From Propionivibrio soli (GTDB lineage: Bacteria > Pseudomonadota > Gammaproteobacteria > Burkholderiales > Rhodocyclaceae), in assembly GCF_025770765.1 (NCBI RefSeq), contig NZ_JANZKY010000024.1:1-47483 (forward strand): a DNA stretch of 47,483 nt. Reading direction: 5' to 3'. Position numbers and translations under genes: made by a program. This document shows positions 34,165 through 47,483 of this stretch, in pieces (position 1 is the first letter of the stretch; every line of letters begins with the position of its first letter). The notes beneath the pieces are model-generated. The model was not told where the DNA came from and did not search any database. It saw nothing but the letters and a program-made list of their open reading frames with translations.

Positions 34165-34215
34165 CCGTTTCGGGTTTTCGGGCCGTCGGTTAACCGGCGG
34201 ACTCGGCTGTTTTGC

Positions 34216-34260
34216 AAAAACCTTGGATGCCGGCAGAGCCGCTTCCAAGGTTTTTCTTTT
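34216..34260. terminator. bidirectional terminator between the biotin carrier and the patatin gene
   Basis: A perfect 12-bp stem (34216-34227 with 34244-34255) with an A-run on one side and a T-run on the other. It can stop transcription from both convergent genes; a smaller inner stem lies in its loop. Confidence 0.85.
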
Positions 34261-34266
34261 GGGCCC

Positions 34267-35790: not shown

Positions 35791-35829
35791 ATTCTTGTGA
35801 TTCTGCGGAACGCGTCGATTGAATCAGAT

Positions 35830-36303
35830 CTATAAGTCGGCGGTAATCTCGGCGAGCGCCGGCTTGGCGATGCGCACGTAGTCCTCGGAGTTGAGCACGA
35901 TCGACGTATCGAGCCTTCCGGCATTGAAGGCGATTTCCTCGAAATCCTCGATGAGCTTGGGATCGACGACAAGCTTGATCGCGGGGTGGAAGGAGAACGG
36001 GGGAATGGCACCGATGGCGCAACCAGTGAGCGCAGTGGCTTCCTCCGGGCTCACAAAAGTCGCTTTCTTTCCTCCGGCCGCTTGGCCAACTTTCTTGAAA
36101 TCGACTTTTCGGTCGCCGGGGAGGACGGAGAGAACGATTGTTTCCGGATGTTCCTTCAAGCGACAGAGCATGGCCTTCGCACCCTGGCCGGGCTTGGTTC
36201 CTCGAATGGCGGCGACCAGTTCCGAGCTTCCTTCGGCGGGATGCTCGATGACGCGATACCTCGCAGCGGAAGCGTCGAGAAGTTTGATTAGTTGTTCAAA
36301 CAT
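35830..36303 (-). CDS. YbaK/ProRS-associated aminoacyl-tRNA deacylase domain protein
   Basis: These free-standing editing proteins remove wrong amino acids from tRNAs. The 157-residue product shows the domain's KAMLCRLK, VLPGDRKVDFKKVGQAAGGKKA (the lysine and GDRK region) and GCAIGAIPPFSFHPAIKLVVD stretches. The ATG at 36301-36303 is preferred over an upstream start because it gives the domain a clean N-terminus MFEQLIKLLDAS. Which mischarged tRNA it edits cannot be told. It follows a LysE-type gene in the same direction. Confidence 0.82.
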   Translation of the reverse strand: MFEQLIKLLDASAARYRVIEHPAEGSSELVAAIRGTKPGQGAKAMLCRLKEHPETIVLSVLPGDRKVDFKKVGQAAGGKKATFVSPEEATALTGCAIGAIPPFSFHPAIKLVVDPKLIEDFEEIAFNAGRLDTSIVLNSEDYVRIAKPALAEITADL

Positions 36304-36384
36304 GAGATAACACAAAACAAAAGATCTCGCGGGCGGGCCTAGGCGGGGCTAGCCATGAGACGGGAAACTCGAACTCGCATTTGC

Positions 36385-37029
36385 CTAGACTGCCTGCGCG
36401 GACGACACGAGCTTGGCACCTAACGCCATCATCAACCCGCCGGCGGCACGGTCGATCCAAGCCTTGTATCGCAAATAAGCGCGGCGTGGGCCTTCCGACG
36501 ACAAGACGAGCGCAACGACGACATACCAACCGGCCTCGACTACAAAAACGGTGCTCACGATCGCCACGTCGAATGCGGCCGATTGTGCTGTCGGCAGGAA
36601 GGCAGCAAAAACGCTAGCGTAAACGATGGCGGCTTTGGGGTTGCTTAATTGTGTGGTCAGGCCGAGCGCGAGCGATTTGAACTGAGTCGCGAAGCGGCGC
36701 GCTTCTGGGCTGCCTGAAAGATCGGCTATGGGCAGCGGTCGCTTCGCACCGCGCCAGATTCGTATTCCTAGGTACGCCAGGTACAGGCCACCAAGGACTT
36801 TGAGCACAACGTAGAGGGAAGGTACGGCGAGGAGGAGGCCATGCAATCCCAATAGGGCGGCGGCCGCAAAGAGAACGCCTCCTGCGCCCATGCCCAGCGC
36901 GACAGCAAGGCCATCTGCGCGCGATGCGGAAACTGCTGTTCGGGCAACCACCACGAAGCTCGGTCCGGGACTAACGGCACCCAAAGCAATGGCCAGAACG
37001 ATGCCAAGAAACGCCGAGAATTCCTGCAT
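36385..37029 (-). CDS. LysE/RhtB family amino-acid exporter
   Basis: An inner-membrane exporter of the LysE superfamily, which pumps out amino acids or their analogues. The 214-residue product has six hydrophobic segments, with the family start FSAFLGIVLAIALGAVSPGPSF (SPGP motif near 21-24), GLYLAYLGIRIWRGA, and TTQLSNPKAAIVYASVFAAF. The ATG at 37027-37029 fits the family N-terminus; an extension to 37155 adds a basic non-family leader. The substrate is not known. Confidence 0.9.
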   Translation of the reverse strand: MQEFSAFLGIVLAIALGAVSPGPSFVVVARTAVSASRADGLAVALGMGAGGVLFAAAALLGLHGLLLAVPSLYVVLKVLGGLYLAYLGIRIWRGAKRPLPIADLSGSPEARRFATQFKSLALGLTTQLSNPKAAIVYASVFAAFLPTAQSAAFDVAIVSTVFVVEAGWYVVVALVLSSEGPRRAYLRYKAWIDRAAGGLMMALGAKLVSSAQAV

Positions 37030-37178
37030 TTTTTTCTCGCGGGCAAAAGCGAAATTATATCTCGGTGGCCGGTCGGTTCTCCCTGCTTTCCTGGTTTTAC
37101 CTTGGTGCAGTATGACTGGCAAAAGTCGAATGGCCCCCGATAGACGGCAACTCAATTGGAAAGTGATGGCGCGCGATT

Positions 37179-37195
37179 AATGACAGACTGTCATT
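37179..37195. repeat. 17-bp palindrome between DUF2239 and the LysE-type gene
   Basis: AATGACAG-A-CTGTCATT is a perfect 8-bp inverted repeat around one base. It lies about 150 bp upstream of the exporter start and 38 bp after the DUF2239 stop; it could be an operator or a short hairpin. Confidence 0.4.
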
Positions 37196-37232
37196 GTCAT
37201 TACCGTCGCCAGCCGTTACGGACAACGTATTG

Positions 37233-37862
37233 CTAGGCGTGCGCTTCTTCGGATGCTTTACCGATACCGACCTCAGCAAGCATCAAGACATGCAAGCGAA
37301 TATCCACTGGCCACCGCGCTATACGGCGACGCAGCGCTTCGATATCGCCGGCGAATAGCGCGCGGCAGGCTTCCTCGTAACCCGCGTTGTTTCCCGCCAT
37401 GGCGGTCATGAAACGATTCGTGGCTTCCACCGCCTGGCGGCGCCGGTCGGATTCGGCAGCCGTTTTGCGCGCCTGCTCCACCAACTTGCGCAAAGCCACA
37501 GAAGCTCCTCCGGGTTGGGCGGCCAGCCAATCCCAATGGCGAGGCAGCAACGTGACCTCGCGAGCCACCACGCCGAGTTTCGGTCGGCCCGGCGATTTTT
37601 CTGAAGTGGTGCTTTCGGTTGTTTGAGCCTCTAGAGACGGGTTTGACGTTTCCGGGGGAAGCCGTCTGAGCACTGCCGATAGCGAGCCGCGCAGGTCGAG
37701 CTCGATCGGTGTGCTGGTTCGTAAGTCGAAGACCAAAACGCTTTCCTCGGGGTTCTCGTCTGCGTAGCGCTTGACCGCACCGGTAACATCGCGCGGCGTG
37801 CCCGAGGCGAGGCGCTTGTTGCTGGCGAAGGCGATCCACGTCGGAATTGAGTTTGCATCCAT
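37233..37862 (-). CDS. DUF2239 family protein
   Basis: The 209-residue product has an N-terminal alpha/beta part (WIAFASNKRLASGTPRDV, VLVFDLRTSTPIELDLRG) and the strongly conserved C-terminal block GRPKLGVVAREVTLLPRHWD and LAAQPGGASVALRKLVEQAR, the hallmark of DUF2239. The function of this family is unknown; the C-terminal half resembles a small DNA- or ligand-binding helical unit. AAGGGAG precedes the ATG. Its promoter lies inside a large inverted repeat (37888-37935), so it is probably tightly regulated. Confidence 0.88.
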   Translation of the reverse strand: MDANSIPTWIAFASNKRLASGTPRDVTGAVKRYADENPEESVLVFDLRTSTPIELDLRGSLSAVLRRLPPETSNPSLEAQTTESTTSEKSPGRPKLGVVAREVTLLPRHWDWLAAQPGGASVALRKLVEQARKTAAESDRRRQAVEATNRFMTAMAGNNAGYEEACRALFAGDIEALRRRIARWPVDIRLHVLMLAEVGIGKASEEAHA

Positions 37863-37887
37863 GAGTATCTCCCTTATGAAGAGATGT

Positions 37888-37935
37888 ATTTTACCCGGAT
37901 AAAAATAGGTTGGTCAAATAATATCCGGGTAAAAT
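37888..37935 (-). promoter_or_regulatory. promoter with a 13-bp inverted-repeat operator upstream of DUF2239
   Basis: ATTTTACCCGGAT (37888-37900) and its perfect complement (37923-37935) are separated by 22 bp. On the minus strand, TTGACC (37912-37917) and TAAAAT (37888-37893), 18 bp apart, form a sigma70 promoter: the -35 lies in the spacer and the -10 overlaps the proximal arm. A dimeric or looping repressor bound to both arms would cover the promoter. The site is 26 bp upstream of the DUF2239 start codon. Confidence 0.7.
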
Positions 37936-38030
37936 TGGTGCGCACTCGAAAGCAGAGGGGCACAAGCTGCTCTCTCAATACTTGCTGTTCAGCTCCACGC
38001 AAACGATCGTCGGCGAGACAGCAACTCCAG

Positions 38031-38360
38031 TTAGTCGACAATGAACAATTTGGCGCCAGTGGTGGTGGACGAACGATGAGGCTCAGCGTTGTCCGCGACT
38101 TGGTAGCTCGTTCCCGCCGTGAGAACGAAAGTGCGCCCATCCTTCAGTTCAGTATGCAACTCGCCCTCGAGGCAGAGCAGAATATGCCCTTTGGAGCACC
38201 AGTGATCGGCGAGGTATCCAGGCGTGTATTCGACCATGCGTACGCGAATGGAGCCGAACTGCCGCGTACGCCAAAAGGCGGAACCGCTTTCCCCTTTGTG
38301 CTCGGTAGGCGGTATCTGACTCCAATCGGTGGTGGAAAACGGGAGATTGTCGATATTCAT
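38031..38360 (-). CDS. DHCW-motif cupin protein
   Basis: A 109-residue single-domain cupin with the namesake DHCW motif (LADHWCSKGHILLCLEGEL, about 48-66). Metal ligands are likely the His residues of DHW/GH and the later EPHRS. These small proteins are common and uncharacterised. The gene is in the same direction as the neighbours; the 170 bp between it and DUF2239 contains the operator. Confidence 0.85.
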   Translation of the reverse strand: MNIDNLPFSTTDWSQIPPTEHKGESGSAFWRTRQFGSIRVRMVEYTPGYLADHWCSKGHILLCLEGELHTELKDGRTFVLTAGTSYQVADNAEPHRSSTTTGAKLFIVD

Positions 38361-38425
38361 GTCGTTGTCTTCTTGACGCGCAGGAGAGAATACTGCCGGC
38401 CTCAGTCTTTACATCGCAATCGGAA

Positions 38426-39118
38426 TTACTCGAGCGCGAAGTCAACAGCGCTCTCGCCGTGAATTTGCGTCGTATCAGAGACCGGTACCGGCGAGTCGTG
38501 TTGCGAAACGAGAAGGGCTATTTCAGTGCAACCAAGAATGATGCCCTCGGCACCGCGATCCACAAGTCGGGCGATGATTTCACGGTAGCGTGTCCGCGAC
38601 GATTCGACGATTTTGCCCAAGCACAACTCGTCGTAAATGACGCGGTGCACGAACTCTCGGTCTTCACTGTCCGGCACGATGGCATTGAGCGAGTGCTTCT
38701 CGCGCAGCCGACCGCAATAGAAATCCTGCTCCATCGTGAACCGGGTTCCGAGGAGACCAATAGTCTTTATGCCACTCGCCTTGATTCGCACGGCCGTCGG
38801 GTCGGCAATATGCAACAGTGGAATTCCAGCCGCACCTTCGATTGCGTCTGCGACTTTGTGCATCGTGTTCGTACACAAGACGATGAAATCGGCGCCAGCG
38901 CGCTTAAGCGATTTGCCTGCTTCGGCAAGAACACGGCCCGCTTCCTCCCAGTTGCCGGTCGCTTGCAAGTGTTCGATGTCGTGAAAGTCGACGCTGTAAA
39001 GAACGGCCTTGGCTGAATGAAGCCCGCCCAGTCGAGCCTTGACGTCTTCGTTGATGATTCTGTAATACGACGCGGTCGATTCCCAACTCATTCCGCCGAT
39101 TAACCCGATTGTCTTCAA
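38426..39118 (-). CDS. aspartate/glutamate racemase family protein
   Basis: A cofactor-independent amino-acid racemase using two cysteines. The 230-residue product begins MKTIGLIGGMSWESTASYY and has the two catalytic cysteines in VLCTNTMHK (Cys82) and IILGCTEI (Cys197), the layout of YgeA-type broad-specificity racemases and aspartate racemases. AGGAG precedes the ATG. The neighbours (YciI-like, cupins) are unrelated in function, so its role is likely independent. Confidence 0.9.
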   Translation of the reverse strand: MKTIGLIGGMSWESTASYYRIINEDVKARLGGLHSAKAVLYSVDFHDIEHLQATGNWEEAGRVLAEAGKSLKRAGADFIVLCTNTMHKVADAIEGAAGIPLLHIADPTAVRIKASGIKTIGLLGTRFTMEQDFYCGRLREKHSLNAIVPDSEDREFVHRVIYDELCLGKIVESSRTRYREIIARLVDRGAEGIILGCTEIALLVSQHDSPVPVSDTTQIHGESAVDFALE

Positions 39119-39126
39119 AGATGTCT

Positions 39127-39163
39127 CCTAAGTGCCCGTTCTTTCACCAGGAAAGAGTCGTCT
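39127..39163 (-). other. possible relic attC site downstream of the YciI-like gene
   Basis: On the gene strand, the YciI stop lies in GCCTAGAC, the same altered box as the stop of the DJ-1 cassette, followed by a 6-bp hairpin (TCTTTC/GAAAGA) and ACTTAGGAG before the racemase. This could be a decayed attC, but the evidence is thin. Confidence 0.25.
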
Positions 39164-39452
39164 AGGCTTCTTTTAGGTTGGCGAGAGTCGGAGCGGCCAT
39201 CGAGGCGACAAACTCGATTATCTCGTACTCGGCGACACCTTCACGCTTGAACGGGTCTTCTTCGATGACGCGCTCAGCCTCGGCGCGCGAAGCGAGATTG
39301 GCGAGGATGACGCCTCCAGTACGCGGTTCTTTCCGTCCTGAAATGACGAAACGACCCGCAGCGTAGTTGCGTTCGAGGAACTCGCGATGCGCAACGACAA
39401 AGCGATCGACTTCAGCAAGTGGTCTAACGTAGTTCAGGAGAATGAGGAACAT
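39162..39452 (-). CDS. YciI family protein
   Basis: A 96-residue ferredoxin-like-fold protein of the YciI/YCII family, related to muconolactone isomerase-type domains. It starts MFLILLNYVRPLAEVDRF and has the family His-Asp pair region DRFVVAHREFLERNY and GGVILANLASRAEAERVIEEDPF. The ATG at 39450-39452 is used; a longer frame upstream lacks family features. The 244 bp to its right (39453-39696) hold no gene that I can support. Function unknown. Confidence 0.85.
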   Translation of the reverse strand: MFLILLNYVRPLAEVDRFVVAHREFLERNYAAGRFVISGRKEPRTGGVILANLASRAEAERVIEEDPFKREGVAEYEIIEFVASMAAPTLANLKEA

Positions 39453-39696
39453 GGCGAACTCGATGGGTAGCGGTCTGTGACCGGGGAAAACGATGATCGT
39501 ACTGTAGGTCTTGGCGTTTAGCCACCGACAGACGAGCCGAAAACGCACATGGCATACGCGAGTCTCGCGAATGCCCGGGCAGGTCATCCAGCTGACGATT
39601 GCTCCATTTTTTAGATTGCGTGCCGTATACCCGCTACCGCACTACGCAAACAGCTGTAGCCAGGTTGAATCGCACACTTCGCTATTTGCCCAGGGA

Positions 39697-40176
39697 TCAG
39701 TAAGGGGTTGCATCCTTGCGCGTGAATTGCCATTTCCCCTGCACCAATTCAGCCTTGAGGTCATCATCCGGATAGCTGCACTCATCACCAGGCAGGCGGT
39801 CTCCCACCTCTAGGTATACGACTTCTTCAGAAGACTCATTGACAAGGTTGTGCGCGTTCGCAGTTCCTGCTTTGAAGCCTGCACACATGCCCGGGGTCAG
39901 CTGAGTGCGGCCTTCGTTGGTTTGCAGTATCGGGCGACCTTTTAGGATGTAGATGAACTCGTCTTGCCTTGTGTGAGCGTGGCGAAGAGCAGAAACTGCG
40001 CCCGGGCCGAGCCGGGTGAGATTCACCCCAAAGTTGGTGAGTCCGAAGAAATCTCCAAGCGGCCGCTTCTCCCGGCCATTCATTCGAGACGCAAACGGCT
40101 CGGGATAGTTTGACGGTTTTGTGCGAGGCGGAATATCCGTCGCATGTGCGGCGGTTTTGTTCGTTTCATTGCTCAT
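39697..40176 (-). CDS. cupin domain protein
   Basis: A 159-residue single cupin. Cupin motif 1 is LRHAHTRQDEFIYILKGRPIL and motif 2 GFKAGTANAHNLVNES, with metal-binding His residues present. The variant HAHTRQDEF is typical of the sugar-phosphate-isomerase-like or dioxygenase-like small cupins; function cannot be assigned. It lies just left of the first attC site on the minus strand and may be the last, attC-less cassette or a resident gene. Confidence 0.8.
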   Translation of the reverse strand: MSNETNKTAAHATDIPPRTKPSNYPEPFASRMNGREKRPLGDFFGLTNFGVNLTRLGPGAVSALRHAHTRQDEFIYILKGRPILQTNEGRTQLTPGMCAGFKAGTANAHNLVNESSEEVVYLEVGDRLPGDECSYPDDDLKAELVQGKWQFTRKDATPY

Positions 40177-40227
40177 GGTGGCTCAACTCCTTTCTCGCGA
40201 GCGCTGAATGGATGGAAAAGGATGGTT

Positions 40228-40312
40228 AGCCAACGTGGAACTACCCGGCGCTGCGCGGCTTTATCGCGCAGTGTCCGGCGACGGCAGGAGCGGGATCGAG
40301 CGCCAGTCTAGG
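40228..40312 (-). repeat. attC site 1 (leftmost, degenerate)
   Basis: Boxes AGCCAAC (40228-40234) and GTCTAGG (40306-40312); the second deviates from GTTRRRY. The core GCGCTGCGCGGC...GCGCAGTGTCC matches sites at 44201 and 45161. The stop codon of the DJ-1 gene lies in the right box. Confidence 0.75.
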
Positions 40313-40934
40313 TGCTCTTGATATAAGCAGGAGCTTGTGCATGGTTTTCAAAGCCACCATATTTGACCAAAGAGGGGTAATACTCTGAAGCAAATTGGAC
40401 TTTGCCTGCGGCGGCTTCACCGTCAACGCTAGCGATAAATGCGAGCATAAGATCAGTGCCGGCAGAAACACCGGCAGAGGACCATATGTTGCCATCTTGC
40501 ACGTAGCGTTGCTCAACGACCGTGACATCACCAAGCGCTCGCAAACGGTCCAGCGAGCCCCAGTGAGTTGTTGCTTTCTTGCCCGATAAAAGCCCTGCAG
40601 CGTGCAGCACAAAGGAACCGGTGCAAACGGATAAGACGGCCTTGCAGTTCGTTGCTTGGTTGGCAACGAAATCGATTAGTGCTGAGTTGCTGACTTCCCG
40701 TCGCGTGCCTTGGCCTCCTGGAACGAGCAGGTAATCAAGCGGAGGGCACGTGGCAAACGACGCATGCGGGTTAATTGACAAACCCTTTGCGCAAACGATT
40801 GGATCAAGCGATTGGCCGACAATGATGCAATTTTCTGGGCCGTTGGCATTTTTCCTCCACATGGTGAGCATCTCCCACGGCCCGACAAAATCAAGTTCTT
40901 CGACCTCGTTGAATACAAGAATCCCAAAATTCAT
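40308..40934 (-). CDS. cassette gene: DJ-1/PfpI family protein
   Basis: The 208-residue product is a class I glutamine-amidotransferase-like protein of the DJ-1/PfpI superfamily, close to isonitrile hydratase and the N-terminal halves of some AraC regulators. It shows ILVFNEVEELDFVGPWEML, LLVPGGQGTRR and the nucleophile cysteine in VLSVCTGSFVLHAAGLL (Cys104) followed by TTHWGSLDRL. It lacks a DNA-binding domain. GGAGG lies upstream of the ATG, one of only two cassette genes here with a clear ribosome site. Substrate unknown. Confidence 0.85.
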   Translation of the reverse strand: MNFGILVFNEVEELDFVGPWEMLTMWRKNANGPENCIIVGQSLDPIVCAKGLSINPHASFATCPPLDYLLVPGGQGTRREVSNSALIDFVANQATNCKAVLSVCTGSFVLHAAGLLSGKKATTHWGSLDRLRALGDVTVVEQRYVQDGNIWSSAGVSAGTDLMLAFIASVDGEAAAGKVQFASEYYPSLVKYGGFENHAQAPAYIKST

Positions 40935-40949
40935 AGGAACCTCCGAAGC

Positions 40950-41015
40950 AACTAACGTGGAAGTGAGCGGCCTGCGCGGCTTTTCGCGAAAGTCCGCTCG
41001 ACTGCAGGGCTAGAG
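40950..41015 (-). repeat. attC site 2
   Basis: 66 bp. Boxes AACTAAC (40950-40956) and GCTAGAG (41009-41015; C in place of the first T). The core CGGCCTGCGCGGCTTTTCGCG resembles sites at 43624 and 45768. Confidence 0.82.
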
Positions 41016-41025
41016 CACTCTTTTC

Positions 41026-41451
41026 TCATACTTTTCGAATGCTCCATGATCTCTCGCCGATGCTGATTGTTAGAACCCCATCGTCAACGCTCGACGTCAT
41101 ATTGAAACCCACCGGATAGCCAAACTTTGCCTTCGGGATTGGATCAACAACGGGTGCGGCGGCCAGCGATCCCGTTTCAATGAACGTCTCGTAAGGAGCA
41201 AAGTAAGGGCGGTCATGGCAGTTGGGACAATCGAAGACGATCGCCCCTGGTGCAAAGAATACCGATGTATCCAACATGCCTTCGATCGTGAGTGGTCGGT
41301 GGCATGTAGGACAGGTGATCAAGGTACTAAGGGAAGACAACCGCTCCTCTTCACTGCGGCGAAGCGCTCGATCGCGCATGCGCCTTACGAGATGCCAAGC
41401 ACACCATACAACGGCACCGAGCAGCACAAGTGATCCGATGGACGGCGGCAT
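41026..41451 (-). CDS. cassette gene: membrane-anchored zinc-ribbon protein
   Basis: The 141-residue product has an N-terminal transmembrane helix (about 3-20, PSIGSLVLLGAVVWCAWHL), a basic stretch, and a zinc ribbon formed by TCPTCHRPL and DCPNCHDRPYF (about 46-80). The rest has no recognised domain. The ATG at 41449-41451 is 5 nt from the attC box; a longer frame through the attC is rejected. Function unknown. Confidence 0.75.
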   Translation of the reverse strand: MPPSIGSLVLLGAVVWCAWHLVRRMRDRALRRSEEERLSSLSTLITCPTCHRPLTIEGMLDTSVFFAPGAIVFDCPNCHDRPYFAPYETFIETGSLAAAPVVDPIPKAKFGYPVGFNMTSSVDDGVLTISIGERSWSIRKV

Positions 41452-41456
41452 GAGTG

Positions 41457-41497
41457 CTCTAACGTAGAGGTGACCGGCTTTGACCGCAGTGCTAGAG
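41457..41497 (-). repeat. attC site 3 (41 bp, internally deleted)
   Basis: Boxes CTCTAAC (41457-41463) and GCTAGAG (41491-41497). Its left 18 bp and right 23 bp match the two ends of sites such as the one at 44201, so about 48 bp of the central hairpin appear lost. Confidence 0.72.
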
Positions 41498-41986
41498 CGC
41501 CTTTTCGACGTAAGCATTGAGGCCCGCAATTAAGCACGTGAGTTCAAGGGGGTAGTACTGGACAACAGCTTCCTCAGTAGGAGCACCAATTTCAATCCAA
41601 TACTGCCCAAGCTCGTGTTGCTCGGCAAGCGAATACTCGTCGTACAACTCGTAGTGGTAGCGGGCGCGCTCAAAGATGAATTGGTACCAGACGAGAAGTT
41701 TCTCGACCTTGGAAAGATCAGCGTGCCCAGGCATTCGTACCGAGGCAACCGCCAAAATTTCCTTTCGAGCGTAGCCAGGTAAACCAAGCCAGAGGTTTTT
41801 GTAGTTGTGACTCTGTTTTGGTTCTTGATTCGCAACAAGGAGAGCGCATTTCAATAGAACCTCGAAGGCAAGAATACGAATGATTGCCTGCGAGTCGGAG
41901 TGCGTGTCTAGCGATGACGCCAAGAGATCGGCGTCGTGCAAGCGATCTCGGGCTTCGTTATACATGCGCCGAATCCGATCAGTCAT
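41492..41986 (-). CDS. cassette gene: HEPN-like helical protein
   Basis: The 164-residue all-helical product has the pattern ILAFEVLLKCALLVANQEP...SHNYKNLWLGLP (about 35-75), which resembles the HEPN core (a Glu-X2-Leu-Lys helix followed by a Gly/Ser-His-Asn/Asp loop). The canonical RX4-6H ribonuclease motif is not clear; RARYH near 110 is too short. HEPN proteins often act in toxin-antitoxin or phage-defence contexts, but no partner gene is present. The TAG stop lies in attC box 3; the start is 5 nt from attC 4. No Shine-Dalgarno is visible. Confidence 0.65.
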   Translation of the reverse strand: MTDRIRRMYNEARDRLHDADLLASSLDTHSDSQAIIRILAFEVLLKCALLVANQEPKQSHNYKNLWLGLPGYARKEILAVASVRMPGHADLSKVEKLLVWYQFIFERARYHYELYDEYSLAEQHELGQYWIEIGAPTEEAVVQYYPLELTCLIAGLNAYVEKAL

Positions 41987-41991
41987 GAGCG

Positions 41992-42063
41992 CCCTAACGT
42001 CTGAGTTGAGGGGCGCGAAGCCGGCTTGCCGGCGTAGCGTCCCTCTCGAACGAAATGTTAGAT
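41992..42063 (-). repeat. attC site 4
   Basis: 72 bp. Boxes CCCTAAC (41992-41998) and GTTAGAT (42057-42063), with a GC-rich hairpin GAAGCCGGCTTGCCGGC between. Confidence 0.88.
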
Positions 42064-42070
42064 GTCATGC

Positions 42071-42757
42071 TCAGAGCGACCTAAGGTCTCGCTTTGCGGA
42101 CGAAGGCTTTAGCACCAAATCGCGGAAACCAGAATCCGCAAGGAAATTCTTGACGTTTGCAGCAAAGGCGTTTCTCAGAAACACCGGAAGGCCAACGGGA
42201 ACGGCTTCCTGCGCACTATATGAACCCTCGGTTGTGACTTCGTGAACGACCTTGCCAGCGGTTCGACTGTAGATCTGCCATGCAACGCGCATGTAAACGC
42301 CACCCTTCAGCGTGGTTGTGTTTCCGATATCGATATTCGGGCTACCAGAGTAGGGAAAGCAGACCTTGATATCGACCTTATTGACTAACCCCGCAACTAG
42401 TATCTCGGCCTTCCAAACATAAGGATCGCCAAAGAGGGCGTAAGGATCGCCAACTACTGGATAGTTATTTGCCTCAAGTTCCTTACGAAATGTCTCAGTC
42501 AGTTCTTCATCGGTGATATTGAGCCGGCCACCTCGCCATGTGATTGTTGCACCTGGGGCGCACCACCAGCCGTGTTGGAATTGGCCGATCTGCTGTCCGA
42601 GCGGAATCTTCGTCATGATCTTCCGGAACTCGATTGGGTTCGCATCAGCTCCGGTTGGAAGCGCTAACGGCGTATTCGACTCGGCGACTTGCACGGGATT
42701 AACGGCGCACCCGCTAATAACAATGGTGACTAGGGCAATTAGTAGTTTCATTTGCAT
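42071..42757 (-). CDS. cassette gene: lipoprotein of unknown function
   Basis: The 228-residue product has a lipoprotein signal with lipobox ISGC (Cys17, or Cys15 from the second Met). The mature part begins AVNPVQVAESN and contains TITWRGGRLNITDEELTETF and YVWKAEILVAGLVNKVDIKV; it may form a beta-rich periplasmic domain. No enzyme motif or known family is recognised. The start has no obvious ribosome site. An outer-membrane-facing role is inferred from the lipid anchor only. Confidence 0.75.
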   Translation of the reverse strand: MQMKLLIALVTIVISGCAVNPVQVAESNTPLALPTGADANPIEFRKIMTKIPLGQQIGQFQHGWWCAPGATITWRGGRLNITDEELTETFRKELEANNYPVVGDPYALFGDPYVWKAEILVAGLVNKVDIKVCFPYSGSPNIDIGNTTTLKGGVYMRVAWQIYSRTAGKVVHEVTTEGSYSAQEAVPVGLPVFLRNAFAANVKNFLADSGFRDLVLKPSSAKRDLRSL

Positions 42758-42775
42758 ACGAAGCAGATTAATGAC

Positions 42776-42845
42776 ATCTAACGTTTGAATTCAGGGGCGC
42801 GACGCGGTCCTGTCGCGGCGCGTCCCTTGGAATGATGGGTTAGGC
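42776..42845 (-). repeat. attC site 5
   Basis: 70 bp. Boxes ATCTAAC (42776-42782) and GTTAGGC (42839-42845), with a GCGCGACGCGG...CCGCG-type imperfect hairpin between. Confidence 0.88.
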
Positions 42846-42852
42846 GTACACG

Positions 42853-43608
42853 TCAGCAAAGTAATGACTCCTCGCGATTGGACTCCATTACGATCAGAAA
42901 GAATTCTGCTTCATCAACTTTGAAGGTGGCGTTGAACCTGAAGTTTGCCTCCAAAAGATCAACTCGCTTTGCCATGCACGGAAAGCCCTCATCAATGCAC
43001 TTCTTGTATAACGCGTCTGCACCAAATCCTGTTGCAAATAGCCGCTCCCATTGCTTATCAACTTCAACAGCCGCAACGCTCTGAAGTTCTTGAAGAAGTT
43101 GAACAAGCTCGTTGTTGATAATGTCTTTCCATCTATCTGCTAACTCAAACTTAAGGCCGTATTCAAGTAATCGCCTGCTATATGAACGAGCTCCGAGTGT
43201 TGTATATGCTGAAGTAATCAGTAAGAAAGCGCGAGACACCCCGTCTTGCAAGATGCGTTTGCTTGATAGATCAGGAAGCGCTCCTGAGTCTTTGGCTTGC
43301 CTCAAGTAATAGCGCGCTAAATCAGTTGCCTGATCAAATCGTGAAGAACGAGAGAACAAATCGGCAAGGTAGACTCTCGGAAGATGCAGTGAATTTGGAT
43401 AACGAGTGACAAACGCTTCCAGAAGATCAAAGGCAGGTGAAATTCCTCGTTCGAACATTGAAGCGGCAACCCATGCCAACAAATGCTCTTCAGATTCTCC
43501 GTCAAGATAGGCTGCGCGAGCGATACTCTCGGCTTCTTTGATTCGATTTTCATTCAGCGCGGTTCTGATTCGCTCTTCGTAGCTGGCTCTTTTCCCGAAA
43601 CCGAACAT
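42853..43608 (-). CDS. cassette gene: TPR-like helical protein
   Basis: The 251-residue soluble product starts MFGFGKRASYEERIRTALNE and shows repeated helix pairs such as RIKEAESIARAAYLDGESEE and SLHLPRVYLADLFSRSSRFD, suggesting tetratricopeptide-like repeats over about 10-150. The C-terminal part has no clear family. It is AT-richer than the core genes, a sign of different origin. AAGGAG lies 7 nt before the ATG. Function unknown. Confidence 0.72.
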   Translation of the reverse strand: MFGFGKRASYEERIRTALNENRIKEAESIARAAYLDGESEEHLLAWVAASMFERGISPAFDLLEAFVTRYPNSLHLPRVYLADLFSRSSRFDQATDLARYYLRQAKDSGALPDLSSKRILQDGVSRAFLLITSAYTTLGARSYSRRLLEYGLKFELADRWKDIINNELVQLLQELQSVAAVEVDKQWERLFATGFGADALYKKCIDEGFPCMAKRVDLLEANFRFNATFKVDEAEFFLIVMESNREESLLC

Positions 43609-43623
43609 CAGTACTCCTTATAC

Positions 43624-43690
43624 GCCTAACGTCTGAATTCACCGGACTGCGCGGCTTTTCGCGCAGGTCCGGTGGAATGACGGGTTAGGC
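43624..43690 (-). repeat. attC site 6
   Basis: 67 bp. Boxes GCCTAAC (43624-43630) and GTTAGGC (43684-43690). The core ACCGGACTGCGCGGC...GCGCAGGTCCGGTGG is nearly the same as in the site at 45768. Confidence 0.9.
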
Positions 43691-44195
43691 ATTGTATGCC
43701 GTAGAGATGGTTCTTGATATGTTGAACGACCTCCGGAATCGATTTGTCGGACGTGTCGATTACCCGACCGAGGTTAGATAGATGCGGCTGCATTGCAACA
43801 AGGCTTTGAGAGACGCGCTCACCTTGCCGTGCTGCCTCACTACGCGTTGAATCTCGAGCTTCGAGCATTGATAGTGGAGCCCAAAGAGTAAACATTTGGC
43901 AGGCGATCGCTGGATTGAGCGAACCGCTGAAATGACCAACTTGGACTGGACTTTCAAATACATAGTCGAAGATCACGGTACTTGCACCAGACTGAAGATA
44001 GAAATTGGCGAGTGTAGCCGCAGCTCTGTATGTGGAACCTGCTCCAAGAATGGCTTTGGCTTCGATTGGTGCAAACAATCGAAGGGCGTCACCAGAAATG
44101 TGAACTGACGTCGGACACAACTGGTGTAACTCAGTTGCAACAGAAGATTTACCCGTTGCTGATGGGCCATTGATAAGAATGACACCGGTGTACAT
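43626..44195 (-). CDS. cassette gene: P-loop phosphotransferase-like protein, reading through attC 6
   Basis: The 189-residue product has Walker A GPSATGKSS (10-18), VHISGDALRLF and VIFDYVFESP in the middle, and an arginine-rich helix EARDSTRSEAARQGERVSQS. This layout resembles small kinases and chloramphenicol phosphotransferase-like proteins (RXXXRG(D/E)R motif). The last 20 or so residues are encoded by the attC site itself, with the stop in its far box. Whether it modifies an antibiotic, a nucleoside or another small molecule cannot be told. No Shine-Dalgarno is visible. Confidence 0.7.
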   Translation of the reverse strand: MYTGVILINGPSATGKSSVATELHQLCPTSVHISGDALRLFAPIEAKAILGAGSTYRAAATLANFYLQSGASTVIFDYVFESPVQVGHFSGSLNPAIACQMFTLWAPLSMLEARDSTRSEAARQGERVSQSLVAMQPHLSNLGRVIDTSDKSIPEVVQHIKNHLYGIQCLTRHSTGPARKAAQSGEFRR

Positions 44196-44200
44196 GAAAT

Positions 44201-44290
44201 GCCTAACGTTGGAGGTAAGGGGCGCTGCGCGGCGCTTTATCGCGCAGCGTCCAGCGACCGAAGGGAGCGGCCTTGACCGCAGTGTTAGGC
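44201..44290 (-). repeat. attC site 7
   Basis: 90 bp, the longest here. Boxes GCCTAAC (44201-44207) and GTTAGGC (44284-44290); core GCGCTGCGCGGCGC...GCGCAGCGTCC plus a second small hairpin GCGGCCTTGACCGC near the right end. Confidence 0.9.
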
Positions 44291-44761
44291 AACTTGCTCA
44301 TATTGGAACGCGCCTAAACGCTTTACGTAGATAAAATTGTCGTCTTCGGGAAGCTCTTCAATCTGTATAGCCTCTTCTATGCATTCCTCAGACAGCGCGA
44401 TCCCGGATTCCGGCTCGAAAATTGGATTCCAAGAAATTTCGTAGATCGGGAGGTCGCTTTCCAATGGATAGCGAACGCTAAACACAATAAGAGGGCGTTG
44501 CTTGAGAGATATGCGTTTCGCGTTTTGCCAGAAAACGGGGTTCTGCTGCTCCGAGATATGCGCAGCAAACGCCAGCACATTTTCAAACTCACCAAACGCT
44601 GCATTTATCGTTTTCTGAGCAATTTCCAGTCGTGAATGCATTGGGTTGTCGTCGTTGTAGCTGACGTAAATCATCGTTTCACCGTGCTGGAACTCGCAAA
44701 CTTTGGGCTCGCAATGGAGCCAGTGACCATACATTCGAGATGGCGCAAGGGAGATTGTCAT
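44285..44761 (-). CDS. cassette gene: hypothetical protein
   Basis: A 158-residue soluble acidic product with no recognised family. It starts MTISLAPSRMYGHWLHCEPK and ends LPEDDNFIYVKRLGAFQYEQ. Regular hydrophobic-polar alternation suggests a mixed alpha/beta fold. The TAA stop lies in the attC 7 box, and the ATG is 3 nt from attC 8, so the whole cassette is coding. No Shine-Dalgarno is visible. Confidence 0.7.
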   Translation of the reverse strand: MTISLAPSRMYGHWLHCEPKVCEFQHGETMIYVSYNDDNPMHSRLEIAQKTINAAFGEFENVLAFAAHISEQQNPVFWQNAKRISLKQRPLIVFSVRYPLESDLPIYEISWNPIFEPESGIALSEECIEEAIQIEELPEDDNFIYVKRLGAFQYEQVA

Positions 44762-44764
44762 GTT

Positions 44765-44851
44765 GCCTAACGTTGTAGGTAAGGGGCGCCCCGCTTGCGG
44801 GGCGTCCAGTGGAAGCCGTAGGCTGGAACGGCCTTGACCGTAATGTTAGGC
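44765..44851 (-). repeat. attC site 8
   Basis: 87 bp. Boxes GCCTAAC (44765-44771) and GTTAGGC (44845-44851), with a perfect small hairpin GGCGCCCCGCTTGCGGGGCG inside. Confidence 0.9.
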
Positions 44852-44862
44852 ATGGCGCGTAG

Positions 44863-45153
44863 CTAGCTGCTTTGGGGCCAGATTGGGCCATTGGCAATGC
44901 TGTTTGGAACAAAACCGATGCCACATGCTTCGCAATAGTAACCGTTGATAAATTGTTGAAGAGGCCCTTCTTGCAAGAACTCGGTTTTGCATTCATCAAC
45001 CGCCAATTGGTCTTTGCGTTGGTAACCGGCTCGCTCTTCAGCGGCTCCAAAGATTTTTCTCGGACTTGCCGCACCAATAAGAAGAGTTTTTTCTCTGACG
45101 TGTGCGTTGCTCAGACACTTTGGGCAGATTCTGGGATCTTCAGAGACGCTCAT
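44863..45153 (-). CDS. cassette gene: small zinc-ribbon-like protein
   Basis: A 96-residue product with two cysteine knuckles, RICPKCLSNAH (about 8-18) and YYCEACGIGFVPN (about 73-85), likely one zinc ribbon joined by a helical insert. No enzyme motif. The start is 7 nt from attC 9 with no ribosome site. Function unknown. Confidence 0.7.
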   Translation of the reverse strand: MSVSEDPRICPKCLSNAHVREKTLLIGAASPRKIFGAAEERAGYQRKDQLAVDECKTEFLQEGPLQQFINGYYCEACGIGFVPNSIANGPIWPQSS

Positions 45154-45160
45154 GGCTGGT

Positions 45161-45247
45161 GCCTAACGTAGAGCTAACCGGCGCTGCGCGGCTTTATCGC
45201 GCAGCGTCCAGTGAGCGAAGCGAACGAGGTTGAGCGCCGGGTTAGAA
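45161..45247 (-). repeat. attC site 9
   Basis: 87 bp. Boxes GCCTAAC (45161-45167) and GTTAGAA (45241-45247); core GCGCTGCGCGGCTTTATCGC as in sites 1 and 7. Confidence 0.9.
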
Positions 45248-45254
45248 ATGACTC

Positions 45255-45767
45255 TCATTGAAATAGCACCTTCAGCGCTCTGGTGACGCCAACATAAAGC
45301 AGTGATGTACCAATGGTGGCGAAGAGTGCAACCGTTATCCAATATTGCAGTGGGTCGGCCGATTTGGACACGCCGCGCCCTTTGGGCGTATCTGGAAAAT
45401 AGCCAAAGCGCAAAGCCGTTCTGGCAACATAGAGCACGAACAAACCAAATAGACAAATAGAAACAGAAAGAGCCGTTGGTCTGTATTGGGCAGACTGCAC
45501 AAAAAACAGAGGAACGGCGGCTAACGCAAGAAGCAAGAGCCCAACAACGCGATGATTTGACCGAGTTGTTGGCCACTCTCCAAGACGGACAGAGGTTTGC
45601 GAAGATGTGACTTCATCGCTGGCTCGGTGGCGAGACGTGCAAAGTAGCCAAATGGAAAACCCTGTATAGGCAAAGAGAAGGCCAAACGAGTAATAGGGAT
45701 GTGCATCCCGAAGTAGGAATAAACCCACGATACAAAGAAGGCCGAAGCCACCAAGGCGAAAGATCAT
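45255..45767 (-). CDS. cassette gene: four-helix membrane protein
   Basis: The 170-residue product has four likely transmembrane segments (about 5-20, 25-43, 75-110 as a pair, and 143-162), joined by a polar loop rich in Ser and Arg. No family is recognised. The ATG directly touches attC 10 (0 nt), so the cassette provides no leader of its own. Confidence 0.7.
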   Translation of the reverse strand: MIFRLGGFGLLCIVGLFLLRDAHPYYSFGLLFAYTGFSIWLLCTSRHRASDEVTSSQTSVRLGEWPTTRSNHRVVGLLLLALAAVPLFFVQSAQYRPTALSVSICLFGLFVLYVARTALRFGYFPDTPKGRGVSKSADPLQYWITVALFATIGTSLLYVGVTRALKVLFQ

Positions 45768-45834
45768 TTCTAACGTTGGAAATCACCGGCCTGCGCGGCT
45801 TTTCGCGCAGGTCCGGTGGATTGAGAGGTTAGCC
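45768..45834 (-). repeat. attC site 10
   Basis: 67 bp. Boxes TTCTAAC (45768-45774) and GTTAGCC (45828-45834); core ACCGGCCTGCGCGGC...GCGCAGGTCCGGTGG, close to site 6. Confidence 0.9.
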
Positions 45835-46422
45835 GTCGACATGGAACTGAACACGCTGGCCGTACTGCAACCGAAACTCCGCATGAGTTGAAACCCCTTC
45901 CCGTTTTGCAATGCCCTCAAGTGTGTTGGAGGATAAGGACACCCGCGCTCGTTCGGGATGCAACCACACCCATGTGACGGAGAAGCCGAAACTGTGGTCG
46001 TTGGGAAGGGTTTCTGCGTGAATACTCGGGCCGGACGGAGGTTTGACGTTAAAGGTGAACCGCTCGCGCACGATGGGGCGTTGCGCGAGATCTTGAAACA
46101 CTTGCTCGATTGGTTGCCACGGTTCATGCGGTTGTTCGTCCTCGGGGTAGAGTTCCTCAATGGTCTTTCCAGGACGCGACGTGGTCGCGTTTTCCAGCAG
46201 AGTTACGGCGATTTCGTCTCCGGGGGAAATGATGCGGTCAGGCTCCCAGATCAGGTGTTTCTGATCTTGCTCTTCCCCGTAAAGTCCACCACTTACGTCG
46301 AGGTTCGCGAAGTCTGGGGTAATGCGGTCTCCGAAAACTCGCACGCTGAGAATGTTGAGACCATCAGACGAGATGGTGACCAGTTCCGTGCCGTTGAGAG
46401 AAATTGCGAGTGCTGGCGGCAT
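45829..46422 (-). CDS. cassette gene: hypothetical protein
   Basis: A 197-residue soluble product that starts MPPALAISLNGTELVTISSD and shows many beta-strand-like segments (LNILSVRVFGDRI, ERFTFNVKPPSGPS, FSVTWVWLHPERARVSL), suggesting a beta-rich fold. No known family. The TAA stop lies in the attC 10 box. No signal peptide, and no ribosome site before the ATG. Confidence 0.7.
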   Translation of the reverse strand: MPPALAISLNGTELVTISSDGLNILSVRVFGDRITPDFANLDVSGGLYGEEQDQKHLIWEPDRIISPGDEIAVTLLENATTSRPGKTIEELYPEDEQPHEPWQPIEQVFQDLAQRPIVRERFTFNVKPPSGPSIHAETLPNDHSFGFSVTWVWLHPERARVSLSSNTLEGIAKREGVSTHAEFRLQYGQRVQFHVDG

Positions 46423-46427
46423 AAGAC

Positions 46428-46487
46428 GGCTAACGTTTGAAGTAACCGGCGCGCTTTAGCGCGTCCGGGTTGACTGAGATGTTAGAA
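46428..46487 (-). repeat. attC site 11
   Basis: 60 bp. Boxes GGCTAAC (46428-46434) and GTTAGAA (46481-46487), with a short palindrome GGCGCGCTTTAGCGCGTCC at the centre. Confidence 0.88.
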
Positions 46488-46971
46488 CTCCCAGAGGTTT
46501 AAGGGGAAACTGCTTCCATACAGCGTCCCAAACCGCCGAGAAGCGATCAAGTTCGGCAGATTGGTCGAGGCCTGCGGGATGGAAAACCTGAACGCTATGC
46601 CGAGTAGCGTCCAGTCGAATTTCTATAGAGTAAGTTGGCGCGTGGACAGGAAGCAGCGCAGGTTTAATCTCCTTAGGGAGTTCATTGAACTGATACGCCT
46701 GCGCCTCTTTAGCCAATGACATAAGAATATCTGGATCGAGAAAGAACTCTCCGCTGATGAGTCCAAAAGGATTCATGTTGGAATAGTGAAAGTATGCGCG
46801 TCCGGTTCGCGTGATATGGACGCTCCAATCCTGATAGCCATGTGTCAATAGCGAAGCCTCGATCTCCATCTCTGGTTTAGAAGGTTGATCCGAGCTGACT
46901 TGATCGGCTCCTGCAGTCTTGGCGAACATTATCAAGGTCAAAGCCAGGATGAATTGAATTCGGGAATGCAT
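46456..46971 (-). CDS. cassette gene: exported hypothetical protein, ending inside attC 11
   Basis: The 171-residue product has an N-terminal signal peptide (MHSRIQFILALTLIMFAKTAGAD, shortened here to HSRIQFILALTLIMFAKTA) with likely cleavage after AGA, and a periplasmic domain of unknown family with GYQDWSVHITRTGRAYFHYS. The frame enters attC 11 and stops at 46456-46458, in the hairpin, so about ten C-terminal residues come from the recombination site. No ribosome site is visible. Confidence 0.7.
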   Translation of the reverse strand: MHSRIQFILALTLIMFAKTAGADQVSSDQPSKPEMEIEASLLTHGYQDWSVHITRTGRAYFHYSNMNPFGLISGEFFLDPDILMSLAKEAQAYQFNELPKEIKPALLPVHAPTYSIEIRLDATRHSVQVFHPAGLDQSAELDRFSAVWDAVWKQFPLKPLGVLTSQSTRTR

Positions 46972-46981
46972 ATGTGAAGAG

Positions 46982-47053
46982 TTCTAACGTTTGACATAAC
47001 CGGCGGGCAAAAAGCGCAGCTTTTTGACTGTCCGGTTGATGGAAGGGTTGGGC
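46982..47053 (-). repeat. attC site 12
   Basis: 72 bp. Boxes TTCTAAC (46982-46988) and GTTGGGC (47047-47053), with the arms ACCGG and CCGGT and the hairpin AAAAAGC/GCTTTTT between. Confidence 0.88.
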
Positions 47054-47054
47054 A

Positions 47055-47471
47055 TCATGATGGCTCACCCAACTGACCATCGGCATAAGCGAAGACCTGC
47101 CACCGTCTCTTGCGGCCAAACCACTCGCTCCATGTTGGCGCCCAGTACCCTTTGTACATGCCCCAAGACTCTACATCGGCGGTCTTGAACCGAGGAGCTT
47201 GGTAAACCTCGCCACGAATGCCGAACTCTTCGTACCACTCGTTGATGATGGAGCCGTTCCAATCAACTGTGACTTGCTCTTTCACGGTTCCATCTTGCAA
47301 GCGAAGGCCGATGCGTAGCCCGTACTTAAGCGCACCCTCCTTTTGCATTGGCGAGTACCTTTCGAGTTCGTCAAGTGAGGCTCTGAGGCGCGGCTCCATC
47401 ACGCTCCAAAGCTTCTGTGGAATGCGTACTGCTTCGCCTTCAGACGACGACAAGTCCGACTCGCTGCTCAT
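47055..47471 (-). CDS. cassette gene: hypothetical protein
   Basis: A 138-residue soluble product with no recognised family. It starts MSSESDLSSSEGEAVRIPQK and later has VDWNGSIINEWYEEFGIRGE and WAPTWSEWFGRKRRWQVFA, rich in Trp and acidic residues. The ATG at 47469-47471 is preferred over an upstream TTG at 47480, which lies in the next attC box. No ribosome site. Confidence 0.7.
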   Translation of the reverse strand: MSSESDLSSSEGEAVRIPQKLWSVMEPRLRASLDELERYSPMQKEGALKYGLRIGLRLQDGTVKEQVTVDWNGSIINEWYEEFGIRGEVYQAPRFKTADVESWGMYKGYWAPTWSEWFGRKRRWQVFAYADGQLGEPS

Positions 47472-47474
47472 GAT

Positions 47475-47483
47475 GCCCAACGT
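47475..47483 (-). repeat. start of the next attC site, cut by the window edge
   Basis: GCCCAAC followed by GT, placed 4 nt after a cassette start codon as in the other sites. It shows that the array continues to the right. Confidence 0.7.

Follow-up and report, generated by a model that had tools for sequence, protein, structure and literature searches.

The 47,483-nucleotide stretch of Propionivibrio soli DNA analysed here (the window; contig C17 of a 4.76 Mb genome in 36 contigs) ends in an array of gene cassettes at positions 40,228 to 47,483. With a probability of roughly 0.9, this array represents the distal 12 of the 15 cassettes of a complete chromosomal integron of this Propionivibrio species, which continues on contig C13. 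An initial annotation made from the window letters had described the region as the distal part of a chromosomal integron array and had placed the attI site and the integrase gene intI to its right. Both statements are borne out: in that direction the integron continues with three further cassettes and attI, followed by an intact intI whose orientation is away from the array. Judged from sequence, the genome has a set of platforms that for the most part lack intI, and the window integron is the intact one.

Continuation of the array to attI and intI

The final base of the window is the end of C17, and the final 127 bases of C17 are identical to the first 127 of C13. After this overlap, C13 carries, in order, attC 13, three cassettes (K13 to K15), attI, intI, and genes named by eye as cysN, cysD and cysH. 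The intI gene (C13:2038-3048) is intact and open and points away from the array. Its product, IntI, scores 501 bits against TIGR02249 (cut-off 265) and has V. cholerae IntI4 (2a3v) as its best solved match, aligned over residues 16-329; the R, HxxR, H and Y of this alignment, which we take to be the tyrosine recombinase residues, are all in place. The putative attI site, at approximately C13:1893-1961, is composed of a core and an inverted repeat and is conserved upstream of intI in relatives. The long inverted repeat of the C13 site (L008:1893-1961; GACGGAAAGTTTT ... AAAACTTTCCGTC) is also present in many related attI sites, and because of it the attI model matches both strands. A perfect CTGTN8ACAG, presumably a LexA-box-like (SOS-box-like) motif, is located at C13:1962 in the intI leader and suggests SOS control of intI. 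Within codons 40-49 of intI, on the array-facing strand, a sigma-70-like TTGCCA-17-TCTAAT sequence was identified as the likely cassette promoter (Pc).

The window array (array A) is read as C17 plus C13 because of the 127-bp overlap and because the window gene block was observed to adjoin cysN, with unchanged relative orientation, in 5 of the 10 relatives whose cysN region was retrieved. No attC site was found at E 0.1 in those five regions, and array A, with 15 cassettes over about 9 kb, appears to have been inserted in this lineage. Housekeeping genes flank the integron on both sides, indicating a chromosomal location. Three points weigh against the join: it consists of overlap and synteny and is spanned by no read or contig; in the other five relatives the stretch retrieved around cysN contains none of the window genes; and the end of contig C19 has 119 bases in common with the same place, so that the overlap alone cannot choose between C13 and C19. 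The window array might accordingly belong to the truncated-intI platform of C19, headed by an orphan attI, with contig C34 then going with the intact intI. This arrangement is very improbable given the position of the window gene block next to cysN in the five relatives, and given that the C13 overlap has the full 127 bp, a length also found at two other contig-start pairs of the assembly.

In the window, the interval from the biotin carrier gene to the array (34200-40227) holds patatin-like, YbaK-like, LysE-like, racemase, YciI-like and cupin genes, and in relative G008 the order is biotin carrier gene, oadB-like gene, cysN (all named by eye).

attC sites and layout of the array

All 12 attC sites of the window were recovered, at E-values of 2.4e-20 to 8.5e-4, by R2, an independent covariance model for which 17 attC sites were taken from other contigs of this genome and none from the window (default filters); a search of this kind had been proposed as a check in the initial annotation. 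Over the 47,483 bases and up to E 10, the only further R2 matches were at E 0.28 (site 10 on the opposite strand) and E 0.73 (45519-45574), with none in 1-40227. A second model, R1, built from 25 attC sites of the genome including 9 from the window, recovered 11 of the 12 in a genome-wide search and missed the 41-bp site. The strand given in the list below is that on which the cassette genes lie; the model was drawn on the plus strand.

40228..40313, minus strand, attC 1, most distal, degenerate core boxes (R2 E 5.4e-7)
40950..41015, minus strand, attC 2 (R2 E 5.6e-10)
41457..41497, minus strand, attC 3, shortened to 41 bp (R2 E 8.5e-4; missed by R1)
41992..42063, minus strand, attC 4 (R2 E 5.6e-9)
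42776..42845, minus strand, attC 5 (R2 E 1.3e-9)
43624..43690, minus strand, attC 6 (R2 E 1.8e-13)
44201..44290, minus strand, attC 7 (R2 E 2.4e-20)
44765..44851, minus strand, attC 8 (R2 E 6.5e-12)
45161..45247, minus strand, attC 9 (R2 E 8.1e-19)
45768..45834, minus strand, attC 10 (R2 E 1.2e-11)
46428..46487, minus strand, attC 11 (R2 E 5.5e-7)
46982..47053, minus strand, attC 12 (R2 E 6.1e-8)
47475..47483, minus strand, start of attC 13 (completed on C13:119-205)

The anatomy and orientation of the array are direct observations. All attC sites share one orientation with single genes between them, as in a sedentary chromosomal integron, and attC sites and genes together occupy 7113 of the 7256 bases, in keeping with the initial description of uniform minus-strand genes with almost no spacer. 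The count of twelve sites also stands, as does the thirteenth at the window edge, which is real and continues as C13:119-205. The count of eleven genes does not, since there are 12, the twelfth lying at 47055-47471. The GC content of the array is 52%, against 58% in the remaining window.

Stem pairing was examined in 25 sites of the genome (9 from the window), the stem structure having been drawn on those same 25 sequences. Paired cells made up 88.2% versus 77.9% in shuffles, and double-change cells numbered 55 versus 20.6, both measures exceeding all shuffles. The picture of covariation among these 25 sites is mixed, since neither pairs changed on both sides (6 versus 7.3) nor further pair types (18 versus 21.7) rose above the shuffles.

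Half of attC 9 (45157-45209) has 90-92% identity with DNA found at blaOXA-2-type cassettes on plasmids from clinical bacteria, as would fit an environmental source of these cassettes. Among the 20 of 84 records listed in a plasmid search, matches span 1-3% of the query, and 80% of it in one place was seen in no record.

A duplicated cassette and a second array

One cassette of the window is observed in duplicate. Positions 46984..47483 form a two-copy repeat consisting of one cassette unit (K12) from core site to core site, with identity ending at the core sites and with ends common to C34, C13 and C19: the end of C34 is the first 127 bases of the unit, and its last 127 bases are present on C13 and its last 119 on C19. 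C34 and C19, joined by elimination, make up a second array, with an attI and an intI cut to a 52-codon stub. The attI/intI 5' regions of C13 and C19 are the same at 283 of 299 aligned bases and differ at 16 (5.4%), and the stub has one additional base. The second K12 copy has no differences over its 246 visible bases. As the cassette copies are the same over this length and the platforms differ at 16 of 299 positions, we infer that the K12 cassette moved after the platforms diverged, and therefore that it was probably moved by the IntI of C13 acting in trans. An explanation of the contig break by population heterogeneity was abandoned when the second chromosomal K12 copy came to light. In the C34 array, half an attC site and a cassette-free stretch (L016:11866-11905, by eye) suggest a decayed distal part.

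An active IntI would insert circular cassettes at attI and would use attC x attC recombination to excise or move them. The window cassettes, being distal and approximately 2 to 9 kb from Pc, are probably weakly expressed from it. Another interpretation is that the array is a dead relic, in which intI is silent or inactive and the cassettes are immobile. Many integron integrases are reported to be inactivated (PMC3108266, as far as its available text goes), and two sites weigh against an array that is functional throughout: site 3 is only 41 bp long and the core boxes of site 1 are degenerate, so these two may be weak or dead. The open and complete intI and the agreement of the K12 copies over 246 bp, although the attI/intI 5' copies differ at 5.4%, make the relic interpretation unlikely.

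Further arrays and attI copies in the genome

The window array is one of several in the genome, which could not be seen from the window. In total, 48 attC sites were found at E 1e-4 (150 candidates scored), in eight places if C17-C13 and C34-C19 are joined: 11 on C17, 3 on C13, 5 on C19, 4 on C34, 8 and 1 on C33, 3 on C31, 7 on C7, 4 on C3 and 2 on C23. Genome G006 of the genus likewise has 48, and at least one attC was present in 21 of the 28 genus genomes (own included).

Four attI sites of the C13 type (attI-A) are observed in the genome, on C13, C19, C3 and C31, each heading an array, and only that of C13 has an intact integrase gene. C19 retains the 52-codon intI stub carrying a likely Pc, C31 is decayed around a likely Pc, and C3 has attI alone. 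A second IntI, encoded on C33 (L009:9181-10110), is 51% identical to the C13 IntI, scores 371 bits and heads the C33 array; an 88% copy of the region upstream of its gene heads the C23 array (L182:9879-10040), without intI. The C23 array consists of two cassettes with VOC-like and acetyltransferase-like genes (by eye). No intI remnant was seen beside the attI copies of C3, C31 and C23, and no attI was seen at the C7 array or at the lone strong attC site of C33. The most likely interpretation is that the single intact IntI of each of the two types serves several attI sites in trans, in which case the genome would comprise four attI-A platforms plus one orphan attI of the second IntI type.

The arrays of C3, C31, C23, C7 and C34/C19 resemble CALINs (clusters of attC sites without an intact integrase gene), and those of C3, C31, C23 and C34/C19 each comprise two or more attC sites with no intact intI adjacent. 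They differ from CALINs in that C3, C31, C19 and C23 keep an attI-like head, accompanied on C19 and C31 by the likely Pc. The available text of the CALIN definition is silent on attI; if usual practice is, as we read it, to require the absence of integron platform sequence, these four loci fall outside it.

A mixed culture, contamination or an assembly error could in principle account for the duplicated cassette and the extra arrays, the estimated contamination being 1.56% and one cassette repeat joining four contig ends. The extra arrays are, however, found within contigs of 198 to 326 kb (C3, C23, C31, C33 and the end of C34), and orphan attI sites are met again in family members whose genome is a single contig (G486, G490, G435 and G499), so we give this explanation very little weight.

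Orphan attI sites in the family

Searches with R3, a sequence model of attI derived from 12 sites, gave matches at E 0.1 in 13 of the 28 genomes of the genus; at E 1e-3, matches were present in 51 among 249 genomes belonging to the same GTDB-type family. In total, 62 attI regions were analysed, 22 from the genus (4 of them of the present genome) and 40 from the family list. The genus sites include four (G022 C364 twice, G006 C7 and G006 C14) that reached only E 0.01 to 0.03 in the R3 search, and two regions (L319 and L255) have less than 1.2 kb of sequence on the intI side. Outside the 62 are G008 C43 (L266), G022 C81 (L267), weak matches in G010, G002 and G013 C160, and three sites that have intI (G006 C8, G022 C21 and G018 C59).

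An intI gene stands beside attI in 9 of the 62 regions, one of these genes being broken (L333), and the remaining 53 keep at most a 5' stub of intI; counting the three further sites with intI gives 53 orphans among 65. Orphan attI sites are thus common in the family in the sample examined, in which the 40 family sites were hand-picked for best scores and for genomes in few contigs and are not a random draw; this choice of sample counts against the distributed reading put forward below.

On the array side, attC sites are present in 41 of the 53 orphans, within 1.6 kb in 36 of them, and absent in 12. All 131 attC sites found in the 62 regions at E up to 0.01 lie on the array side in the correct orientation. 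This bears on whether the cassettes of integrase-less arrays landed instead at non-classical genomic sites (attG) with no involvement of attI. Off-target insertion is one of the proposed origins of CALINs (PMC8618304, in the text available), and the C7 array and the lone strong C33 site show no attI; against this stand the 41 orphans with attC on the array side and the uniform placement of the 131 sites, and attG insertion seems a poor explanation for these arrays.

In the vicinity of some orphans there is another tyrosine recombinase. The one at G006 C12 is 34% identical to IntI-A, falls below the TIGR02249 cut-off and starts approximately 150 bases from attI on the array side, and that at G009 C3 is broken or split and lies approximately 2.7 kb off. 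In G006 (L248:431-5556), two similar tyrosine recombinase genes are situated approximately 3.9 kb apart, one of them beside an orphan attI and intI stub.

Remnants of intI and a retained promoter segment

The 53 orphans were searched with a hidden Markov model (HMM) of the intI leader and gene (1063 positions; 35 intact genes, C13 included). At E up to 1, no piece from positions 245-1063 was found in any of them; at E up to 10, weak matches (E 0.5 to 10) reach position 280 and were taken as chance. The information content of the model from position 101 is 0.39-0.91 bits, with positions 151-200 among the higher and 551-600 and 926-1000 equally high, so later pieces of intI should have shown. 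Stubs and isolated pieces were recovered at the following HMM positions.

7-226, stub, C19
6-244, stub, G015
4-178, stub, G009
5-195, stub, G006
11-117, stub, G013
170-230, isolated piece, G022
164-215, isolated piece, G426
169-215, isolated piece, G021
144-215, isolated piece, G275 (weak)
30-213, weak longer match, G486b
17-221, weak longer match, G486a

The four isolated pieces are situated at four different distances from attI. Only leader sequence was recognised, weakly, in at least nine other orphans; at six loci (L318, L319, L320, L321, L323 and L331) the intI leader was weakly recognised and the codon 40-49 promoter was not.

The piece common to the orphans carries the array-facing promoter-like site (TTGCCA-17-TCTAAT in C13). 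Among the 35 intact genes, this site has 10 of 12 consensus bases in 29, 9 in one, and 4 to 6 in five. The promoter piece was recognised in 10 of the 53 orphans, with scores of 7 to 10: seven by the HMM (C19, G022, G015, G426, G021, G486b and G275) and three by a hexamer scan (C31, G486a and G586), of which G486a also has a weak HMM match and G586 one at chance level (E 0.32). Compared with the consensus of the intact genes, the seven HMM-found orphans are 87% identical in the hexamers, 90% in the spacer and 56% in the flanks, and the intact genes themselves 88%, 79% and 83%. The three scan-group orphans show 92%, 39% and 40%, the hexamer value being biased upward because they were found by hexamer scan. 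In the orphans the promoter is 134 to 292 bases from the attI start; these distances vary, so deletions of different size would have spared the promoter piece. A comparison of 14 loci detected no similarity beyond the promoter.

Array-facing promoter-like sites scoring at least 9.5 within 370 bases of the attI start were present in 18 of the 53 orphans; the number was 4 for sites that face away and averaged 3.5 over the shuffles (maximum 7 in 100). At a score of at least 10 the figures were 6, versus 0 and 0.7 (maximum 4). With the ten HMM cases removed, 10 of 43 orphans had a site at 9.5 or above, versus 3 facing away and a shuffled mean of 2.75 (maximum 7), and 2 of 43 had one at 10 or above, versus 0 and 0.57 (maximum 3), the latter being within chance. 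Farther out, at 600-900 bases, no site reached 9.5 in the 52 orphans whose sequence extends that far. A possible second array-facing promoter, in the intI leader, also showed up in the promoter scores.

Our tentative reading, which we hold at rather less than even odds, is that Rhodocyclaceae integrons are often distributed systems, with one integrase gene and several integrase-less attI platforms whose arrays would be supplied in trans, and that the Pc recognisable in 10 of the 53 orphans has been kept by selection. Supply in trans by the surviving integrase would explain the cassette common to the window array and the stub array. Several observations count against selection: the promoter piece is unrecognised in 43 of the 53 orphans; two of the ten that keep it, G021 and G486a, are without attC on the array side; and proximity to attI could preserve an adjoining stub without selection. 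These same observations favour the view that the 5' stubs with promoter are chance leftovers of neutral decay, to which we assign slightly less than an even chance. Moreover, the conservation of the piece is supportive only, because HMM-found pieces are conserved by the manner of their finding. What neutral decay accounts for less readily is the lack of any piece from positions 245-1063 in the HMM search at E up to 1, the isolated piece within approximately 144-230 at four distances from attI in four orphans (one weak), the agreement of hexamers and spacer in the seven HMM cases compared with their flanks, and the excess of array-facing promoter-like sites over both controls.

Cassette genes

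The cassette genes of the window are as follows (Pfam search).

40308..40934, minus strand, K1, DJ-1/PfpI family (PF01965, E 1.2e-27)
41026..41451, minus strand, K2, small protein, no family over cut-off (searched as 41026-41457)
41492..41986, minus strand, K3, no family
42071..42757, minus strand, K4, lipoprotein-like by eye, no family (73% DNA match in genome G142)
42853..43608, minus strand, K5, no family
43626..44195, minus strand, K6, AAA_33 P-loop kinase-like (PF13671, 34.6 bits, cut-off 27)
44285..44761, minus strand, K7, no family over cut-off
44863..45153, minus strand, K8, no family
45255..45767, minus strand, K9, membrane protein-like by eye, no family over cut-off
45829..46422, minus strand, K10, no family
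46456..46971, minus strand, K11, no family
47055..47471, minus strand, K12, no family, between attC 12 and attC 13, cassette in two genome copies

The initial impression that most products belong to no known family was upheld: only K1 and K6 pass the Pfam cut-off, the other 10 of the 12 matching no family above it, and 3 of 20 proteins pass when K13 to K15 and five of the second array are included. A PADLOC search for defence genes among the same 20 proteins returned a single match, to K7, and as this was weak (E 0.0045) K7 was dropped as a defence gene. K12 has one weak homologue among 399 genomes of the order (own included). In the between-species comparison, no homologue of the 15 cassette proteins was found by tblastn at 1e-10 in 80 named intI loci or in 11 intI regions of relatives, two sets that overlap in some contigs. 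When the array DNA was compared with 249 other genomes of the order (one genome per species, two candidates scored per genome), matches of more than 400 bp involved K1 and K4, at 69-74% in three genomes, and the remaining listed matches were attC-sized. An Rfam search returned two tRNAs and nothing else.

Relation to known integrons and implications

The array is of a known kind. It shares with the sedentary chromosomal integron of V. cholerae (IntI4/IntIA) an intI, an attI, a likely array-facing promoter, an SOS-box-like site before intI, and a one-way cassette array of mostly unknown genes. It differs in the number of cassettes (15 instead of hundreds), in its attC sites, which measure 41 to 90 bp and vary in their middle parts in place of near-uniform repeats, and in a likely Pc inside intI, unlike the V. 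cholerae Pc (PMC8876359, from the text available). In class 1 integrons Pc is placed within intI1 at 223-252 bp from the crossover, and a Pc inside intI is also described for the chromosomal integron of P. stutzeri (PMC8876359). The array-facing promoter in the 5' part of intI is common to class 1 integrons and the present integron, in which it lies approximately 260-290 bp from the attI start; unlike in class 1, the promoter segment here also occurs in some platforms that lost the remaining intI. The Delta-attI gene cassettes of mobile integrons also have attI-derived sequence outside a complete integron (PMC12901181); according to the portion of that account available, the attI pieces there are parts of cassettes, whereas here attI heads of approximately 45-70 bp stand at separate chromosomal arrays.

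Integrase-less attI platforms, some with Pc, would be new. In the parts available, the literature searched, including PMC8352920, contains no report of platforms with attI and Pc but without intI, and the available sections on the CALINs of Xanthomonas and Shewanella describe these without mention of attI (PMC12444791, PMC9229058). Three origins have been proposed for attC clusters without an integrase (PMC8618304), namely loss of intI, off-target insertion and rearrangement, and if the distributed arrangement is real, the presence of attI would be a way to distinguish among them. One genome would then possess several points of cassette capture per enzyme, most of which would go unnoticed in counts that rely on intI.

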